43,286 nucleotides of DNA, from NCBI GenBank assembly GCA_017458675.1, contig JAFTAM010000178.1, forward strand, positions 1 to 43,286, read 5' to 3'. Every line of letters starts with the position of its first letter. The stretch's first letter is position 1. Shown piece by piece: positions 5,052-36,566 of the stretch. The notes under the pieces were generated by a model. It searched no databases, was not told the origin of the DNA, and saw nothing but the letters and a program-made list of their open reading frames with translations. This DNA comes from a bacterium (GTDB lineage: Bacteria > Vulcanimicrobiota > Xenobia > Xenobiales > Xenobiaceae). The position numbers and the translations under genes are program-made.

Positions 5052-5115
5052 GTCATTCCGAGCGCAGCGAAGAATCTGTCGAATTAAGTTTCTTCGCCTT
5101 GCGGCTCAGGATGAC
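5052..5115. repeat. Dispersed imperfect palindrome (copy 1), with half copy 5127-5155
   Basis: The element starts GTCATTCCGAGCGCAGCGAA and ends in the inverted arm GGCTCAGGATGAC; the two arms are imperfect reverse complements around an AT-rich centre. A single left arm (GTCATTCCGAGCGCCGGCGAA) follows from 5127. It belongs to the family also found at 18010, 18084, 26653, 38210 and 38335. The rest of the 4992-5261 gap shows nothing else convincing. Confidence 0.85.
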
Positions 5116-8946: not shown

Positions 8947-9104
8947 TGTAAGACTGATTTTCGGCGCAGTCCAGATAATCAGGGGAAGAATTTCATGCAG
9001 ATGTTGACCGATTGTGCAGGAGCTTCCGCTCAAGGCTGATGGATTAAATTTTGACAATGTATATAAAAATTTCGCGCGGCAGATCGCCGGGGAGGCGCTT
9101 TGAT

Positions 9105-11081
9105 ATGGATAAAATGAGAATGGAAACGCAGGACCTGACGGCGGCCAATGTGGAGAAGATCGGCGAGCTGTTTCCCAACTGTATTACAGAGGCAAGGGAT
9201 GAAAACGGCAAGCTTAAGAAAGCCGTCAATTTTGATATGCTCCGTCAGATGCTTTCCGGAGACGTCGTCGAGGACGGCGAAGCCTATGAGTTTACCTGGG
9301 TAGGCAAAAAAGCCGCTATTATTGAGGCCAACAAGCCCATCCGCAAAACGCTGCGCCCCTGTCCTGAAGAAAGCGTGGATTGGGATACCACGGAGAACTT
9401 GTATATTGAGGGGGACAATCTTGATGTTTTAAAGCTTTTACAGGAGAGCTATTTAGGCAAGATTAAAGAAATTTTTATTGATCCGCCATATAATACCGGT
9501 TCAGACCGTTTTGTTTATCCGGATAATTATAGGATGAGCGTGGACAAATACGAGACGGAAGCTGGGTTTGTTGACGTATCTGGAAATACTCTTTTTGCTG
9601 AAAACGCTAACAGCAATCCGCGTTTTCATTCATTATGGTGCTCTATGATGTATTCCCGTTTAATGTTGGCAAGAAATTTGCTTACAGAAGACGGGATTAT
9701 TTTTATAACGCTTGATGACGGAGAAAATGCAAACGCAAGACATATATGTAACGAGATTTTCGGTGAAACCAATTTTATAACCGAGTTCATTTGGGAAAAG
9801 AAAAAGAAGCCGTCATTTTTGCATAGAAATGTCGGAAAACAGTTCGATTACATCTTATGCTATGCAAAAAACGCTTTAGCTACTAAAGCCTTTTCTGTTG
9901 ATAAAACAACACAGGGGAAAAAGTATCCGGTTAATAATGCTGGGAATGGGAGAAATGTCATTGTGTTTCCACCCAAAACAGTGCGCTTTTCGATGAAGGA
10001 GGCTATATTTGAACCTCAGGATATGTCTGAAGGAAACATTTATACTGTATTAAAAAATCGTGTTGAAGTTGAAGATTATTTCAATATCACAGAAATAATA
10101 CTTGACGGCGAGTGGAGATATTCTCAGGAGAAAATTAACGAGATTATTGCAAACGGGGAGGAATTCCTGATTAGTAAATCGCCGTTTAGACCCAATCATG
10201 TTAAAGTTGGCGGAGAGATTAAGAAAATGAAGAACGTCTTATCTCCAAGCTCTTATAGCTGTGAAACAAATGAAGATGCAGCTAAACAAATTATTGATTT
10301 GTGCGGGGCTACAGTATTTGATAACCCGAAGCCAGTTAAATTAGTAGAACTCCTTCTTGAAGCAACGACATACGATGACAAAGAAGCTACAGTGATGGAT
10401 TTTTTCTCTGGATCAGCTACAACTGCGCACGCAACATTTTCTCTCAATGCTAAAGACGACGGCAAACGAAGATTTATTATGGTTCAATTTCAGGAAAACC
10501 TTGATAAAGCGATGACATCGGCAAAGCCTGGTACAAAACAAGTTTTGTCCAACGCGATAGAGCTTTGTAATCAAATTGGCGTTTCTCATTTTCTGACTGA
10601 AATCGGCAAAGAACGCATTCGGCGCGCCGGGGCCAAAATTAAGGAAGAAAATCCGCTGACCGCACAAAATCTTGACACAGGCTTCCGCGTCTTTAAGCTG
10701 GACGAGAGCAATATGAACGACGTTTACTATACTGCCGGCGAGTACACCCAGGATATGCTGTCCATGATGGAATCCAATGTAAAATCAGATCGCACCGACC
10801 TGGATTTGCTCTTCGGCTGCCTGCTGGAGTGGGGCCTGCCTCTCTCTATGCCGTACAAATCTGAGAAGATCGAAGGCTTCACCGTTCATACTTATAATGA
10901 TGGCGATCTGATCGCCTGTTTCGACGAGAATATTCCGGAAGCGGCGATCAAGGAGATAGCCCGGCGGCAGCCGCTCCGCGCCGTTTTTCGCGACAGCAGC
11001 TTCAGTGACAGCCCAGCTAAAATCAATGTCGGCGAAATTTTCAAAATGCTTGCCCCGAATACTATTGTGAAGGTTCTCTGA
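9105..11081 (+). CDS. mod: Type III restriction-modification DNA methyltransferase (Mod)
   Basis: The modification and specificity subunit of a type III system, a probable N6-adenine methyltransferase; 658 residues. ATG 9105 is chosen because GGGGAGG (9089-9095) sits 9 bases upstream. The catalytic motif IV DPPYNTG is at residues 126-132, and the S-adenosylmethionine site (motif I, DFFSGSATTAHA) is at about 432-443. This beta-class order matches type III Mod proteins, with the target-recognition domain between the motifs. The central region (about 9530-10620) is clearly more AT-rich, with different codon choice from the two ends, suggesting domain exchange. The res gene follows after 98 bases in the same direction. 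No simple-sequence repeat that would drive phase variation was seen. Confidence 0.95.
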   Translation: MDKMRMETQDLTAANVEKIGELFPNCITEARDENGKLKKAVNFDMLRQMLSGDVVEDGEAYEFTWVGKKAAIIEANKPIRKTLRPCPEESVDWDTTENLYIEGDNLDVLKLLQESYLGKIKEIFIDPPYNTGSDRFVYPDNYRMSVDKYETEAGFVDVSGNTLFAENANSNPRFHSLWCSMMYSRLMLARNLLTEDGIIFITLDDGENANARHICNEIFGETNFITEFIWEKKKKPSFLHRNVGKQFDYILCYAKNALATKAFSVDKTTQGKKYPVNNAGNGRNVIVFPPKTVRFSMKEAIFEPQDMSEGNIYTVLKNRVEVEDYFNITEIILDGEWRYSQEKINEIIANGEEFLISKSPFRPNHVKVGGEIKKMKNVLSPSSYSCETNEDAAKQIIDLCGATVFDNPKPVKLVELLLEATTYDDKEATVMDFFSGSATTAHATFSLNAKDDGKRRFIMVQFQENLDKAMTSAKPGTKQVLSNAIELCNQIGVSHFLTEIGKERIRRAGAKIKEENPLTAQNLDTGFRVFKLDESNMNDVYYTAGEYTQDMLSMMESNVKSDRTDLDLLFGCLLEWGLPLSMPYKSEKIEGFTVHTYNDGDLIACFDENIPEAAIKEIARRQPLRAVFRDSSFSDSPAKINVGEIFKMLAPNTIVKVL

Positions 11082-11100
11082 TACTGACAAAAACCAAATA

Positions 11101-11117
11101 CGAACGCACTGCGTTCG
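11101..11117. repeat. Short palindrome in mod-res gap
   Basis: CGAACGCA, one base, TGCGTTCG: a perfect 8-bp inverted repeat 19 bases after the mod stop codon. It could be an mRNA hairpin or a protein-binding site balancing mod and res expression; there is no T run to make it a terminator. Confidence 0.55.
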
Positions 11118-11179
11118 CAATTGACATGTTCACATAATCGCGCTTGAAGAAGAGCGGCGGTGCATCGAGGAAAAGAAGA

Positions 11180-14100
11180 ATGAAAATTCAATTTAAGCAT
11201 CAGAAATTTCAGGCAGACGCCGCTAAAGCGGTGGTGGACGTTTTCGCCGGGCAGCCGTATCTGACGCCCACCTACATGATGGACCGGGGCGCGGGATATT
11301 ACCAAACGAGCCTTACTGATGAACGTGACTTTACCGGCTGGAGCAATCAGCGCATTATTTCCGCGCTGAATGACGAGATTATCCTGAATAATCTCAGAAA
11401 GGTCCAGAGAAACAACCAGATTGAGCCTTCTGAGAGGCTCGAAGGCCGCGCCGACGGATATAATCTGACCGTTGAGATGGAAACGGGAGTTGGCAAGACC
11501 TATACCTACATTAAGACCATGTATGAGCTGAACCGCGCCTACGGCTGGAGCAAGTTCATTATTGTAGTACCCAGCATAGCCATCCGCGAGGGCGTATATA
11601 AATCCTTCGAAATGACTCAGGAGCACTTTGCCGAAGAGTATGGGAAAAAGATCCGCTTCTTCATATATACCTCTTCACAGCTGACGGAGATCGACCGCTT
11701 TGCTTCGGACAGCTCAATAAACGTCATGATCATCAATTCTCAGGCGTTTAACGCCTCCGGCAAGGATGCGCGGCGCATTTACATGAAGCTGGACGAGTTC
11801 CGCTCCCGCAGGCCGATTGATATAATCGCCAAAACCAACCCTGTTTTGATCATAGACGAGCCGCAGTCCGTTGAGGGCAAGAAGACCAAAGAGAAGCTGA
11901 AGGAGTTCAACCCGCTGCTGACGCTGCGCTATTCCGCCACGCATAAATCCGACAGTATTTATAATATGGTCTATCGTCTGGACGCTATGGAGGCATACAA
12001 CAAGCGTCTGGTCAAAAAAATTGCCGTAAAGGGCATCTTCGTGTCCGGCGCCTCGGCGGCGAACGGTTATGTTTATTTGGAAAGCATCAACCTTTCCAAA
12101 AGCGATCCCACGGCAACTTTACAATTTGACGTAAAACAGACGGCAGGGGTCAAGGTCAAAAGCCGCATCGTCAAAATCGGCGACAACCTCTATGATTACT
12201 CGGGAGGTTTGGAGGAATACCGCGGCGGCTTTATAGTTAAATCCATTGACGGACGCGACGACTCCGTGGAATTCCTTAACGGAATCAAAATATATGCAGG
12301 CGAAGTGATCGGCAAGGACAATGAGGATCATCTGCGCCGCATTCAGATCCGCGAGACCATCCTTTCCCATATTGAGCGGGAGCGTAAGCTGTTTTATAAA
12401 GGGATCAAGGTCCTGAGCCTGTTCTTCATAGATGAAGTGGCAAATTATCGGCAGTATGACGCTGCAGGTCAGCCTGTAAACGGCAAATACGCCGATATGT
12501 TCGAAGAGGAATACAAGGATGTTGTCAACAGCCTCCAAATGTCCTTTGGCGAAGATGAATACTTCAAATATCTGAACAGCATTGAGGCTTCAGCAACTCA
12601 TGCCGGCTACTTTTCAGTAGACGGCAAAGGCAAAATGGTTAACGGCGATAAAAAGATCGATAAAAAAGAAAATATTAGTCAGGACGCCGGCGCCTATGAG
12701 CTGATTATGAAGAATAAGGAACTTCTTTTGGATAGGAATCCGCAAAAATCGCCGGTTCGCTTTATTTTTTCTCACTCTGCGCTGCGCGAAGGCTGGGACA
12801 ACCCTAATGTGTTCCAAATCTGTACGCTGAAGCAGAGCGGCAGCGATATCCGGAAGCGGCAGGAGGTGGGCCGTGGTCTGCGCCTGTGCGTTAATAAGAA
12901 CGGCGAACGCATGGACTCCAATGCTTTAGGCAAGGATGTTCACAATATCAACGTGCTTACCGTTATTGCCAGCGAAAGCTACGATTCTTTTGCAAAGGGC
13001 CTCCAGACTGAAATGGCCGAGGCGGTCGCCGACCGTTCGCGCGCGGTTACGCCCGAACTCTTTGAAGGCAAAGTTGTAACAGACAACCGGGGCGGCGAAC
13101 AAACAATCGACAAAGAAACCGCTCAAGCTATTCACTTTGATATGATTGTAAACGGTTATATCGACAAGAAAGGCGCACTTACAGACAAATATTACGAAGA
13201 CAAAGCCAACGGCGAAATCAAGATCGCTGAGGAAGCGGCGGATTATGCGGATGCTGTTATCAGAATTATTGATTCAATATATGATCCCGCGAGCATGCAG
13301 CCTGAAAACGCCCGCAGCAGCAACGTGGAGCTTCAGGTAAATGAAGATAAGCTTGCCATGCCTGAGTTTAAGGAGCTCTGGTCCAGGATCAATGCCAAGT
13401 CCGTATATGTAGTCAATTTTGATACAGACGAGCTGGTGCGGAAGTCGATTGCATCCTTGAACAGCACGCTCCGCGTTTCCAAGATGTTTTTCAAAGTGGA
13501 CACCGGCGTTATGGAGACTATTAAGTCTAAGGAAGACCTTATAAACGGCGCTTCTTTTGACAAGAAAAGCTCTGAAATCCGTAAAGTGAACGTTACGGCT
13601 AATTCCAGCGTGAAGTATGATTTAGTCGGAAAGCTGGTGGATGAAACCGGGCTGACGCGAAAAGCGATTATTTCTATTCTGCAAGGCATACGGCCTGACG
13701 TGTTTAATCAGTTCAAAGAGAATCCCGAGGAGTTTATTATTAAGGCCGCATCGCTGATCGACGATCAGAAGGCTACGGTCATTATTGAGCATATCACCTA
13801 TGATGTTCTCGACGATAAATATGGTACAAATGTCTTTACCGATCCGACGATCAAGGGTAAGCTGGGCTTAAATGCAATGAAAGCCGAAAAGCATTTGTAT
13901 GATCATATTGTTTACGACTCCGCCAATGAGCGCAATTTTGCAGAGGAGTTGGATAAAAGCGCGGATGTGGCTGTGTATGTGAAGCTGCCCGACGGATTTT
14001 ATATATCCACGCCGGTAGGCCGTTATAATCCGGACTGGGCGATTGCCTTCTATGAAGGCAATATAAAGCATATCTATTTTGTGGCCGAGACCAAGGGATC

Positions 14101-14242
14101 GATGAATTCCCTGCAGCTCAGGATGGTTGAAGAATCAAAGATTCACTGCGCCAGGGAGCATTTTAAAGCAATATCCGGCAATAATGTGATTTATGATGTT
14201 GTCGACAGCTATAAAGCTTTGCTTGAAAAGGTCATGAAATAA
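11180..14242 (+). CDS. res: Type III restriction enzyme, Res subunit (helicase-nuclease)
   Basis: The ATP-dependent cleavage subunit that works with Mod; 1020 residues from ATG 11180, which has GAGG 9 bases upstream. A TTG at 11144 opens the frame earlier but adds a basic non-family tail. Superfamily 2 helicase motifs appear in order: Walker A METGVGKT (K106), DEPQ box (VLIIDEPQ), SAT motif (RYSATHK), and motif VI (QEVGRGLRL). A PD-(D/E)xK endonuclease core lies near the C-terminus at about residues 950-970 (NPDWAIAF, then FVAETKG). All key residues appear intact, so the pair should be a working restriction system. Codon use resembles the flanking genome more than the Mod recognition region does. 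Confidence 0.96.
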   Translation: MKIQFKHQKFQADAAKAVVDVFAGQPYLTPTYMMDRGAGYYQTSLTDERDFTGWSNQRIISALNDEIILNNLRKVQRNNQIEPSERLEGRADGYNLTVEMETGVGKTYTYIKTMYELNRAYGWSKFIIVVPSIAIREGVYKSFEMTQEHFAEEYGKKIRFFIYTSSQLTEIDRFASDSSINVMIINSQAFNASGKDARRIYMKLDEFRSRRPIDIIAKTNPVLIIDEPQSVEGKKTKEKLKEFNPLLTLRYSATHKSDSIYNMVYRLDAMEAYNKRLVKKIAVKGIFVSGASAANGYVYLESINLSKSDPTATLQFDVKQTAGVKVKSRIVKIGDNLYDYSGGLEEYRGGFIVKSIDGRDDSVEFLNGIKIYAGEVIGKDNEDHLRRIQIRETILSHIERERKLFYKGIKVLSLFFIDEVANYRQYDAAGQPVNGKYADMFEEEYKDVVNSLQMSFGEDEYFKYLNSIEASATHAGYFSVDGKGKMVNGDKKIDKKENISQDAGAYELIMKNKELLLDRNPQKSPVRFIFSHSALREGWDNPNVFQICTLKQSGSDIRKRQEVGRGLRLCVNKNGERMDSNALGKDVHNINVLTVIASESYDSFAKGLQTEMAEAVADRSRAVTPELFEGKVVTDNRGGEQTIDKETAQAIHFDMIVNGYIDKKGALTDKYYEDKANGEIKIAEEAADYADAVIRIIDSIYDPASMQPENARSSNVELQVNEDKLAMPEFKELWSRINAKSVYVVNFDTDELVRKSIASLNSTLRVSKMFFKVDTGVMETIKSKEDLINGASFDKKSSEIRKVNVTANSSVKYDLVGKLVDETGLTRKAIISILQGIRPDVFNQFKENPEEFIIKAASLIDDQKATVIIEHITYDVLDDKYGTNVFTDPTIKGKLGLNAMKAEKHLYDHIVYDSANERNFAEELDKSADVAVYVKLPDGFYISTPVGRYNPDWAIAFYEGNIKHIYFVAETKGSMNSLQLRMVEESKIHCAREHFKAISGNNVIYDVVDSYKALLEKVMK

Positions 14243-21240: not shown

Positions 21241-21331
21241 ATTTCCCTGGCTGCTCTTTTATCTGACATTGAAATAGCAGCGAAGAACTATAATAGATAT
21301 TTTGCCTGAGGCTCATGATGACAGAAAGCGC

Positions 21332-21357
21332 TGTCATTCTGAGCGCAGCGAAGAATC
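21332..21357. repeat. Half copy of the dispersed palindrome
   Basis: GTCATTCTGAGCGCAGCGAA followed by GAATCT matches the left arm of the family. The expected right arm is broken: a rearranged TTCCTTCGCAGATTCTG and a stray GTCATGCTGAG (21403) follow. It lies in the gap between anmK and the convergent small secreted-protein gene. Confidence 0.75.
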
Positions 21358-21448
21358 TATAAACGACAGTTCCTTCGCAGATTCTGTGCGCAAGCCTCGT
21401 ACTGTCATGCTGAGTCATATGTGCTGCGCCGGAACAATATATAAGGCT

Positions 21449-21760
21449 TCAGTGTTCGTGGCGGCCGTGAGGGCTGTAGCTGCAGCTTCCGTAACCGTTG
21501 GATCCGCAGTAGCGGCAGCGGTTGGCTGTGTGCCCGTGGCGGTGCCTTTTAAACGGACTGTAGCTGCAGCTTCCATAGCCGTTGGAGCCGCAGAATTCAC
21601 AGCGGTCGGCGTAATCGACATGTTCATGGCAGCGGTTTGGACTGTAGCTGCAGCTTCCGTAACCGGTAGAGCCGCAGTAGCGGCATTCGGCGATCGCCGA
21701 AGCGGCCGTAAGACTGATAAAAGTTAATAAGCAGAGAACTGCTGCAGTTAGCCTGTTCAT
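21449..21760 (-). CDS. Small secreted protein with three CxxC / GYGSCSYSP repeats
   Basis: A 103-residue protein with a signal peptide (about 1-24, ending in SAIA) followed only by three near-identical units of about 28 residues. Each unit has the form C-x-[YF]-C-G-S-x-G-Y-G-S-C-S-Y-S-P, then a His-rich tail (HEH, HRHGH, HEH). Cysteines fall at 26/29/37, 54/57/65 and 82/85/93. The spaced Cys and His suggest a metal-binding or zinc-knuckle unit, exported. Similar CGSTxYG-SCPYSP-type repeats occur in other bacteria as small unstudied units; that recollection is not verified here. No strong ribosome site was found. The reverse strand is also open, but the clear signal peptide plus repeat argues for this frame. 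Confidence 0.72.
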   Translation of the reverse strand: MNRLTAAVLCLLTFISLTAASAIAECRYCGSTGYGSCSYSPNRCHEHVDYADRCEFCGSNGYGSCSYSPFKRHRHGHTANRCRYCGSNGYGSCSYSPHGRHEH

Positions 21761-21894: not shown

Positions 21895-23385
21895 ATGGAC
21901 GATAAAATAATAGGCGCCGACTGCGGCGGCGAAGACATGAATGATAAAGAACTGGCTGAATTATTTGTCAAAGCGAGCCATAATTTTTTCTTTGGCAAAG
22001 ACTGTTCAGCGGAGAATTGGAAAAAAGGCGTTATATGCTTGCATAAGGCTATTGAGCTTGGCTGTATAGCAGCTTACAGTATGTTAAGTTCGGCATACCT
22101 GCTTTCTGACAAGCAGGAAGATATAGAAAAAGGACTTGAGATTCTCAGGAAAGGCGCTGATTTAGGGAACGCTGACTGTCTGGCGGAATTGGGAAACCTG
22201 TATTTTGACGGTCGCCATGTTGAGAAAGATGCAGTCAAGGCCTTCGAATATTGGAGCAAAGCGGCTGAAAAGGGACATCCGGAGGCCATGTATAAGCTCG
22301 GATATACAGACGGCAATAACGAGCAGTCGGAAGCTATTGAAGCTTTGGTAAGACAGGCGGAAATGGGCAGCAGCCTCAGCTGCCTGGTGTTGGGATATAT
22401 GTATTACAGCGGCGGCGGTCCTGTTGAACAGGATTACAAGAAGGCTTACAGATACTTAAAAAAGTGCGCTGACTGCGACGATGCTATTAAATATAGCATT
22501 TTGGGGTTCATGTACTATCACGGACACTATGTCGCCCGAAATAGAAAGACAGCTTTAAGGTTTTTCAAAAAGGCTGTTAAATGCGGCCAGTCCGAATGTT
22601 TCAATTTATTCGGTGCGGACGTTACAGCAATGGTAGCCGAAGCTGAGCGTTATTTAGGGATGCTGTATTATACAGAAGAAGAACTGATTAAGCCGAATTT
22701 TAAAAAAGCCTTTGAATATTTCAGTTCCTCTTCAAAAAAAGGCTCCGGTGATGCTGAGTTTTTTGTAGGTTTCATGTACTTAAAGGGAGATTATGTCGAG
22801 GCAAACTCAGATGAAGCGGTTAAGCATTTTGAGCACGCGGCAGAAAACAGCACCATATCCGCTTATTTTGTCGGTTCGATGTATTTAGACGGCGCCTTTG
22901 GCGAACCGGACACGGAGAAGGCGGCTTATTATTTGCAAAAGGCTGCTGACGGCGGAAATGACGAGGCCCAATTCAAACTGGCCGGTCTTTTGCTTAATGA
23001 AGACTGCAGTGAGGAGAATATTGATAAGGTTTTGACTTTGCTTAAACGCTCAGCCGATCAGAATAATGTCGACGCTGAATACGCTTTGGGCGCCATATAT
23101 CTGATGCTGTCAGGCAGCATTGAAGAAAATACTGAAAATAACAGAGAAACCGGGCTGAAGTATTTAAAATCTGCAGCACTCCATGAACAGCCGAACGCAT
23201 GCTTTGACTTAGGCCGCATGTATTTGGAAGGCGACGGTATTGAGCAGGATCAGGTTAACGGCTTGAGCCTGATTACTAAGGCGGCTTGCAGCGGGAACAG
23301 CGACGCCATTAAATACATGATGAATTTGGGCAATGAAGAAAACGAAGATAACGATCTTTGTGAAGACGTTGAAGCCGATTCATGA
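21895..23385 (+). CDS. Sel1-like repeat (TPR-type) protein
   Basis: A 496-residue protein made almost wholly of Sel1 repeats, alpha-helical pairs of about 36 residues that form protein-interaction solenoids. About ten to twelve units are seen from residue 30 on, with repeated LGxMYxxG and KAxxYxxKAAxxGxxxA patterns. No signal peptide or membrane segment is present, so it is probably cytoplasmic. The acidic C-terminus (after about 480) is likely disordered. The segment EYWSKAAEKG...AMYKLGY closely matches the two Sel1 proteins at 34362 and 35730, so all three are paralogues. ATG 21895 is used; ATG 21937 is an alternative. A TATAAT at 21847-21852 may be its -10 element, without a clear -35. Confidence 0.88.
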   Translation: MDDKIIGADCGGEDMNDKELAELFVKASHNFFFGKDCSAENWKKGVICLHKAIELGCIAAYSMLSSAYLLSDKQEDIEKGLEILRKGADLGNADCLAELGNLYFDGRHVEKDAVKAFEYWSKAAEKGHPEAMYKLGYTDGNNEQSEAIEALVRQAEMGSSLSCLVLGYMYYSGGGPVEQDYKKAYRYLKKCADCDDAIKYSILGFMYYHGHYVARNRKTALRFFKKAVKCGQSECFNLFGADVTAMVAEAERYLGMLYYTEEELIKPNFKKAFEYFSSSSKKGSGDAEFFVGFMYLKGDYVEANSDEAVKHFEHAAENSTISAYFVGSMYLDGAFGEPDTEKAAYYLQKAADGGNDEAQFKLAGLLLNEDCSEENIDKVLTLLKRSADQNNVDAEYALGAIYLMLSGSIEENTENNRETGLKYLKSAALHEQPNACFDLGRMYLEGDGIEQDQVNGLSLITKAACSGNSDAIKYMMNLGNEENEDNDLCEDVEADS

Positions 23386-34361: not shown

Positions 34362-35534
34362 ATGGATTCAGATGTCTTTTCTGCAGCTCGTGCAGGTAGA
34401 AACGGGGCTTATAAAGGACGCAGGGATTTAGTAAACGTTGTTATTCCTGACGGCCTGAATATTGTCAAAATAGGGAAATATGCTTTTGAAAACTGCAGCA
34501 GATTAACCTCCGTTGCAATAACTGACAGCGTCGTCTTTATAGGCGACAAAGCTTTTAAAGGCTGCAGCAGTCTGGTCTCCGTTGCGATCCCCGACGAAGT
34601 TTACTACATAGGCGAAAGCGCTTTTGAAGACTGCGGGAGCTTAACTTCCGTTAAGATTCCTGATAAAATTATCTCAATAGGCAAAAAAGCTTTTGACGGC
34701 TGCGGCCGTTTAACCGATATTTATTTTCGCGGCAGACACTGCTCGGATTTGTCTGAGTTTGAAAGCTTCGCTCAAAGCTGCGGCGTATCGTACAACTGCG
34801 ACTGTGAGACCTTATTCGATATCGGCATTTCAGAGTTTGTAAAAGGCGAAATTGACAGCGGCTTTGCAGCTTGGCGCAAGGCTCTGAAATATAACGATCC
34901 CGCGGTGTATTACAATTTAGGCCTGAATTACGTTATTCTGGATATTGATGTCAGCGAAGGCATAAAGCTTCTGCATAGAGGCGCCGACGCGCTGGACGAC
35001 AATCTCTGTCAGTATGCTTTGGGAAGTATTTATTTTATGGGGCTTAACGGTGAAGAACCGGATATAATGAAAGCCTATGAGTATTGGGCAAAAGCGGCAG
35101 ATCATAAGAACCCATATGCCTTATTTAAGCTCGGCTACTCGGAAAATATGCCGGAACTCGATATTGTGAAAAACGCTGAATTACTTGGCGGTCTGCGGGA
35201 ATCGGCCACATATACTATGCTGGGATTGATTTATTTAGACGGGTGTACAGAAACCGTAGGCATAAGCGAAGAAATCTTCAGGGAGTTTTATGACAACACC
35301 GTTGAAATAGAAAGAAATTTAAATAAAGCCGTCTGTTTCTTAAAGAAGGGCGTCGATAAAGGCAATACTACAGCTAAATTTTTTTTAGGACGTTTATATT
35401 ATAACGGTGAAGAAGACGTAATAGAAGCGGACCGGAAAAAGGGTCTGAAGCTTCTTTCCGAAGCAGCCGCCGAGGGCTGCGGCGCTGCTGTATATTTTCT
35501 GACCGAAATCGAAGATGACGGCGAGGATGACTAA
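34362..35534 (+). CDS. BspA-type LRR fused to Sel1-repeat protein
   Basis: A 390-residue protein with two interaction modules. Residues about 25-130 hold four LRR_5 (BspA/TpLRR) units of about 23 residues with the repeated pattern IGxxAFxxCxxLxxVxIPDxV. Residues about 155-385 are Sel1 repeats (LGxxYxxG, KAxxYWxKAA). There is no signal peptide, although BspA-type LRRs are usually surface-exposed, so this copy is probably cytoplasmic. An ideal ribosome site (GGAGGTGAT) precedes the ATG. The Sel1 half is clearly homologous to the next gene (35730) over its full length and to the protein at 21895. The LRR module was therefore gained here or lost there. Confidence 0.9.
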   Translation: MDSDVFSAARAGRNGAYKGRRDLVNVVIPDGLNIVKIGKYAFENCSRLTSVAITDSVVFIGDKAFKGCSSLVSVAIPDEVYYIGESAFEDCGSLTSVKIPDKIISIGKKAFDGCGRLTDIYFRGRHCSDLSEFESFAQSCGVSYNCDCETLFDIGISEFVKGEIDSGFAAWRKALKYNDPAVYYNLGLNYVILDIDVSEGIKLLHRGADALDDNLCQYALGSIYFMGLNGEEPDIMKAYEYWAKAADHKNPYALFKLGYSENMPELDIVKNAELLGGLRESATYTMLGLIYLDGCTETVGISEEIFREFYDNTVEIERNLNKAVCFLKKGVDKGNTTAKFFLGRLYYNGEEDVIEADRKKGLKLLSEAAAEGCGAAVYFLTEIEDDGEDD

Positions 35535-35579
35535 ACAGAAAATTATAAAATATTTTCAGTTCCCTTATTTGCCGCGGAT

Positions 35580-35598
35580 AAGGCTGGTTTTCAGCCTT
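35580..35598. repeat. Hairpin between the Sel1 paralogues
   Basis: AAGGCTG, loop GTTTT, CAGCCTT: a perfect 7-bp stem 45 bases after the LRR-Sel1 stop and overlapping the start of the duplicated upstream block. There is no T run, so termination would be weak. Confidence 0.55.
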
Positions 35599-35729
35599 AT
35601 TCCGGCAGTGCGGCGTCGGAAAAACGTCTGTATTTTAACAATATTTGAACCCATTTTTTTCTTATTGTCGGCCATAATATAACTATAAAACTGTATATCG
35701 GAAATTTTGCCGAAGAATGGAGAATACTG

Positions 35730-36566
35730 ATGGACTGTATGCCTGAGATGGGAGCCTCTTGTTTTGAGGATGAAAACTCTGAGCTCGAAGCGATATATAA
35801 ACTTGGCATTGAATATTTGAAGGAAAATGATATGGAAAAATTGGTCTCTTTATGGACCAAAGCGTTAAAATATAATGATTCTAGATTTTATTTATCGTTG
35901 GCAATGTATTATCTTTATAAGAATACTGAAGACAGCAGCCGTAAAGGAATGGAGCTTCTGCATAAGGCAGCCGATGAATTGAATTGTGATTTATGTCAGT
36001 TTGAACTGGGAAATATTTATTTTTCAGGAGCTGACGGTTCTGAACCTGATATTATGAAGGCTCATGAATATTGGTGCAAGGCTGCTGAGCAAGGCAACAA
36101 GGAAGCAATGTATAAGCTCGGCTATTCTGAAAAAGGCGAGAGGCTCGGACTTGCTGAACTTGCCGATACAGTTGAAGGTATCGAAGGAGCCGCCATAAAC
36201 TTGATGTTAGGCATGATCTATTATCATGGCGATGTTGAAGCTGCCGGAGTAAGCGAGAATTTATTCAGAAGCTTTTTCGACAGCGACATGGCGGTAGAAC
36301 GCGATGTTTCAAAAGCTTTATTTTACATACAGAGAGCCATCGATATGGGCTATTCCCAGGCAAAGCTTCAATTGGGAATCATATATTTAATCGGCGAGGA
36401 TGGCGTCATTGAACCGGATCGGGAAAAGGGAATCGGTCTGATTGCTGAAGCTGCGTCCGAAGGCAGCAAAGATGCGCTCGACTTATTGCTTGAGTTAGAC
36501 GAAGACGACTTTGACGGCGATGAAGACGAAGCTGGAGACGACGGCGAAAACGGTGAAAGCGAATAG
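35730..36566 (+). CDS. Sel1-like repeat protein, paralogue of the preceding gene
   Basis: A 278-residue Sel1 solenoid protein. GGAGAA lies 7 bases before the ATG. It aligns end to end with the Sel1 half of the 34362 product: shared segments include KALKYND, EPDIMKAxEYWxKAA, KLGYSE, and near the end EADRKKGLKLLSEAAxEG versus EPDREKGIGLIAEAASEG. The first 25 residues replace the LRR module and show no known motif. The last 30 residues are strongly acidic (Asp/Glu). It is likely a cytoplasmic scaffold with partners unknown. Confidence 0.9.
   Translation: MDCMPEMGASCFEDENSELEAIYKLGIEYLKENDMEKLVSLWTKALKYNDSRFYLSLAMYYLYKNTEDSSRKGMELLHKAADELNCDLCQFELGNIYFSGADGSEPDIMKAHEYWCKAAEQGNKEAMYKLGYSEKGERLGLAELADTVEGIEGAAINLMLGMIYYHGDVEAAGVSENLFRSFFDSDMAVERDVSKALFYIQRAIDMGYSQAKLQLGIIYLIGEDGVIEPDREKGIGLIAEAASEGSKDALDLLLELDEDDFDGDEDEAGDDGENGESE

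Follow-up and report, generated by a model that had tools for sequence, protein, structure and literature searches.

Zinc ribbons and knuckles (e.g., Pfam PyrI_C and Zn_Ribbon_1) carry a C-x2-C-G knuckle, and bacterial metallothioneins are small proteins rich in Cys and His that hold a metal cluster rather than regularly spaced single sites. The window analyzed here is a stretch of 43,286 nucleotides from a genome of the Xenobiaceae (GCA_017458675.1, contig JAFTAM010000178.1, positions 1 to 43,286). It encodes a miniprotein that has the knuckle, and likely zinc, in common with the zinc ribbons and knuckles, and the small size and Cys/His-rich composition in common with the metallothioneins. 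In contrast to the ribbons and knuckles, the window protein uses a set of three Cys and one His (CCCH) with a P-x3-H tail; no model reaches its cut-off, and there is no structural match in the PDB. In contrast to the metallothioneins, it has no Pfam match and contains one regularly spaced site per unit.

Two groups of sequences contain the same module. The first is a three-module family of the Desulfovibrio type (L002, L007-L011, L033, L035), which is 48-59% identical to the window protein and has the same Cys/His spacing, extended by one residue in some. Unlike the window copy, these proteins have no leader and start 2-5 residues before the first Cys, and their third unit mostly ends in HER or HEK while that of the window protein ends in HEH. 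The second group comprises phage proteins (L019-L029, L057-L068) with two modules of the form CxxCGSxxYGxGC..(S/N/G)P..HxH, a helical C-terminal part (approximately 110-150 residues), and again no leader. Some of these C-terminal parts match phrog_2086, and no fold match was found for this part. The three-module family, as defined here, is unnamed.

Gene and Reading Frame

The gene is complete, with an ATG start, and encodes 103 amino acids and a stop on the minus strand (21449..21760), as judged from the open reading frame and homologues. An open frame of 141 amino acids with a TTG start lies antisense to it on the plus strand (21302..21727), and the initial annotation allowed that this could be the frame translated. 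Between the window gene and L002, substitutions at codon positions 1, 2, and 3 number 14, 13, and 25; between L008 and L009, the closest pair of relatives, they number 6, 3, and 15. A similar third-position excess is found among the window gene's own units. Together, the homologues and this third-position excess identify the minus frame as the one translated and under selection. The antisense frame is therefore a by-product, and we judge it non-coding on this codon-position pattern.

The ribosome site of the window gene is weak (...GGAAAGTTGAGCTTACAAC-ATG), as the initial annotation had noted, and several other genes in the window likewise lack a clear one. Because of this weak site, and because no consensus promoter was found upstream of the gene on the minus strand, its expression is uncertain. 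Its third-position GC content (0.65) is host-like, being close to that of the neighboring murI-, uppP-, and anmK-like genes (0.61-0.64). The neighboring anmK has copies 57-60% identical in other genomes of the same family, which indicates that the contig belongs to this genome and rules out misbinning.

The window also holds dispersed copies of a CATTCTGAGCGnAGCGAAGAATC element (at 5054, 18048, 18121, 21335, and 42476), one of them between anmK and the family gene. A Sel1-repeat protein (21895-23385) is divergent from the family gene, and two similar-looking ORFs lie at 34362-36566. Two adjacent ORFs at 9051-14242 resemble, by eye, a type III restriction-modification system (methylase; helicase/nuclease).

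Leader, Units, and Putative Metal Sites

The first 24 residues, MNRLTAAVLCLLTFISLTAASAIA (21689..21760, minus strand), form a predicted Sec-type signal peptide, as judged from sequence and hydrophobicity. They include a basic start with one Arg, a hydrophobic core (best 12-residue Kyte-Doolittle mean 2.62), and AxA (A22-I23-A24) before the predicted cut at E25, all in keeping with the secreted leader that had been proposed. The protein does not look like a lipoprotein: there is no lipobox, and I23-A24-E25-C26 has no G, A, or S directly before the Cys.

The mature part (79 residues) contains three 22-residue units starting at residues 26, 54, and 82, all encoded on the minus strand. Unit 1, CRYCGSTGYGSCSYSPNRCHEH (21620..21685), has the proposed ligands C26, C29, C37, and H45 (and H47); unit 2, CEFCGSNGYGSCSYSPFKRHRH (21536..21601), has C54, C57, C65, and H73 (and H75); unit 3, CRYCGSNGYGSCSYSPHGRHEH (21452..21517), has C82, C85, C93, and H101 (and H103). 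The period is 28 amino acids or 84 bases, and identity between units is 68-82% at the protein level and 65-85% at the DNA level, so that both the three Cys/His units after the leader and the 84-base repeat of the initial annotation hold. At the best shift of 27-29 residues there are 34 self-matches, compared with a maximum of 18 in 20,000 shuffles, a periodicity that chance does not come close to explaining. The DNA array has diverged too far to be called by Tandem Repeats Finder at the default score. The protein contains eight His and 11 Cys, of which ten are in the mature part (three per unit and C44 in unit 1) and one, C10, is in the leader. The nine Cys counted originally are the regular ones, not the total.

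We aligned 27 units, including those of a divergent branch in which CGY or CGW replaces CGS. Only C1, C4, C12, P16, and H20 are invariant (C-x2-C...C-x3-P-x3-H), and the ligand columns are invariant in 20 proteins. The second His is present as a rule, with exceptions: it is missing from the divergent branch, and in unit 3 its position (that of H103) is occupied by Lys or Arg in most relatives. The conserved three Cys and one His suggest that each unit is most probably a four-ligand CCCH metal site, most probably for zinc, which makes the metal binding proposed from the start likely.

Disulfide knots were the other option raised initially. The Cys could pair after export and give a stable secreted peptide, acting, e.g., against competitors or on surfaces. 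The number of Cys in the mature part is even (10), the export leader is present, and relatives lack the extra C44 of unit 1, which leaves room for disulfides as an adaptation specific to the window copy. However, the conserved set per unit is an odd number of Cys (three) with an invariant His, and the relatives with the same Cys/His set are leaderless and would sit in the reducing cytoplasm. For these reasons we consider disulfides less likely than metal sites, and an exported disulfide-bonded peptide rather unlikely; it is nevertheless the main rival to a metal-loaded protein, and C44 would allow it.

An AlphaFold model without metal, from a 20-row alignment, is confident for the mature part (pLDDT about 89-94). 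A Foldseek search with the model found no similar solved (PDB) or viral structure. The sole fold match to a solved structure has an E-value of 4.7 and a TM score of 0.16-0.18, and profile searches against PDB sequences, including one with the unit profile, gave nothing significant; we therefore rejected a zinc finger or ribbon of known fold. The module has no match above cut-off in Pfam, NCBIfam, PHROG, or PADLOC, and the best matches to the zinc-ribbon models of Pfam and NCBIfam are far below the curated cut-offs. An anti-phage defense protein was likewise rejected, as no PADLOC defense model matches. Literature searches on motif strings and terms returned nothing relevant. The family is uncharacterized, as had been supposed.

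Leaderless Relatives, Neighborhoods, and Distribution

All bacterial relatives with an intact start begin 2-5 residues before the first Cys, and the phage members begin up to 22 residues before it; neither have an export signal. Strong ribosome sites precede the starts of several relatives (GGAGGTGATT-ATG; AGGAGG; GGGAGG and TAGGAG). Because the relatives are leaderless, start close to the first Cys, and in several cases have good ribosome sites, the family is presumably cytoplasmic. Leaderlessness is a common trait of the other members, although not one required for homology, and the window copy is the only member found with an export leader. The idea of a secreted family is therefore not borne out; we read the window copy as an apparently exported variant within an otherwise cytoplasmic family. 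Since our genome search comprised about 1,900 look-ups, with overlaps among them and mostly in two phyla, leader-bearing copies may exist elsewhere.

Could the leader of the window copy be unused for export? The protein would then work in the cytoplasm, as its relatives may do, and serve as a small zinc module with nucleic acid or another protein as its binding partner; every relative whose start is intact is leaderless. Genes for DNA modification, transposase-like genes, or toxin-antitoxin genes are found near some relatives; the neighbors include a TacA-like antitoxin accompanied by a GNAT protein, a PD-(D/E)XK transposase, a DnaA-C-like fragment, and an N6-methylase along with an AAA ATPase. 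Two phage versions, on long contigs, sit among helicase-, GIY-YIG endonuclease-, and kinase-like genes. However, the leader has the composition of a classical signal peptide, its AxA comes right before unit 1, and no ATG, GTG, or TTG that could serve as an in-frame start lies nearer to that unit. We consider this explanation quite unlikely. The mixed neighbors fit life in accessory regions rather than one pathway.

We accepted no conserved partner gene. A short Cys-containing stretch (PCPAGR-C-AGMNCPAN-ACVA) lies directly upstream of the family gene in L002 (1553-1747), where it overlaps the gene by ATGA, and in L003 (7589-7990); it was compared in these two, and the neighborhoods differ otherwise. 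An ORF downstream of L018, overlapping it by 11 bases, looks by eye like a restriction specificity subunit but has no Pfam match.

The window protein has the three units (C-x2-C-x7/8-C-x3-P-x3-H) that define the family. All bacterial members of the CGS type whose ORF is complete likewise have three, and two-unit forms are found in the phages and in a single weak relative (L055), so the variation in copy number that had been thought possible is nearly absent among bacterial members. The three units of the window copy are more alike than those of its relatives. Of the 22 residues of its unit 3, 18 are identical to its own unit 1 and 12 to unit 3 of L002, which points to homogenization of the units within this copy, with their number held constant.

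Contrary to a possible absence from related genomes, the protein does occur in others: two Desulfovibrio metagenome-assembled genomes with homologues were found in the initial scan. The gene is rare: it is present in one of 149 genomes of the window's own phylum, in 8 of 288 of the family to which the Desulfovibrio relatives belong, and in 4 of 395 in a sample of their phylum. Members of the three-module family are thus scattered through Desulfovibrionaceae and some other genomes. One genome has a tandem pair of three-module genes (L012, 9100-9797). In two genomes (G606, G885), the gene of the divergent branch (L051, L052), which also has three modules, follows immediately after a tRNA-like sequence. 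In the IMG/VR contigs, the three-module form occurs once (L018), close to the end of a prophage contig; two-module proteins that carry the helical C-terminal part are numerous there. Searches of plasmid and phage records (tblastn) with the bacterial proteins gave nothing significant; a phage version used as query yielded nothing beyond a weak match between its C-terminal part and phage Lw1. In E. coli there were only 22-base chance matches.

The patchy distribution suggests horizontal transfer, by which the window lineage probably gained the gene. The nearest sequences are two Desulfovibrio copies; in the tree, which is too weak to name a donor, the window copy is on a long branch, within no starred group, and not firmly placed. 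Presence in a single genome of the phylum, together with the weak ribosome site and the existence of truncated or frameshifted relatives (L032 and L003), might also indicate a transferred fragment that is decaying or accidental and no longer expressed. However, no stop interrupts the frame, each of the three units retains all its proposed ligands, and there is a third-position bias among the units and relative to L002; we regard decay as very unlikely. Two relatives carry no weight in our argument: L003, with a frameshift at its start, and L030, which is joined to an unrelated fragment.

An Exported Metal-Binding Miniprotein?

The explanation we favor, and consider probable, is that the gene product is an exported miniprotein with three metal-binding modules in an otherwise cytoplasmic family, probably gained horizontally and serving as a scaffold or metal buffer outside the cytoplasm. 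The predicted Sec signal peptide would take the chain across the inner membrane, and a cut after A24 would leave the 79-residue mature protein, which would fold as three near-identical modules. Each module would hold one zinc (or similar) ion, three per molecule, with the two Cys of C-x2-C, the third Cys, and the first of the two His in H-x-H as ligands. Outside the cytoplasm, the product would most likely be a rigid metal-loaded scaffold or a metal buffer. It is tempting to hypothesize further that, in one lineage, an otherwise intracellular zinc-module family with a fold absent from the PDB gained a signal peptide and so came to act outside the cell, as a miniprotein for metal capture or signaling; we consider this possible but doubtful.

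The compact module C-x2-C-G-S...C-x2-SP-x3-H is common to scattered bacteria and phages, is covered by none of the family libraries used, and has a confident model without a solved relative. Because one copy is apparently exported, the module can be compared in both settings, within the cell and beyond it, and its metal load and its role are directly testable.
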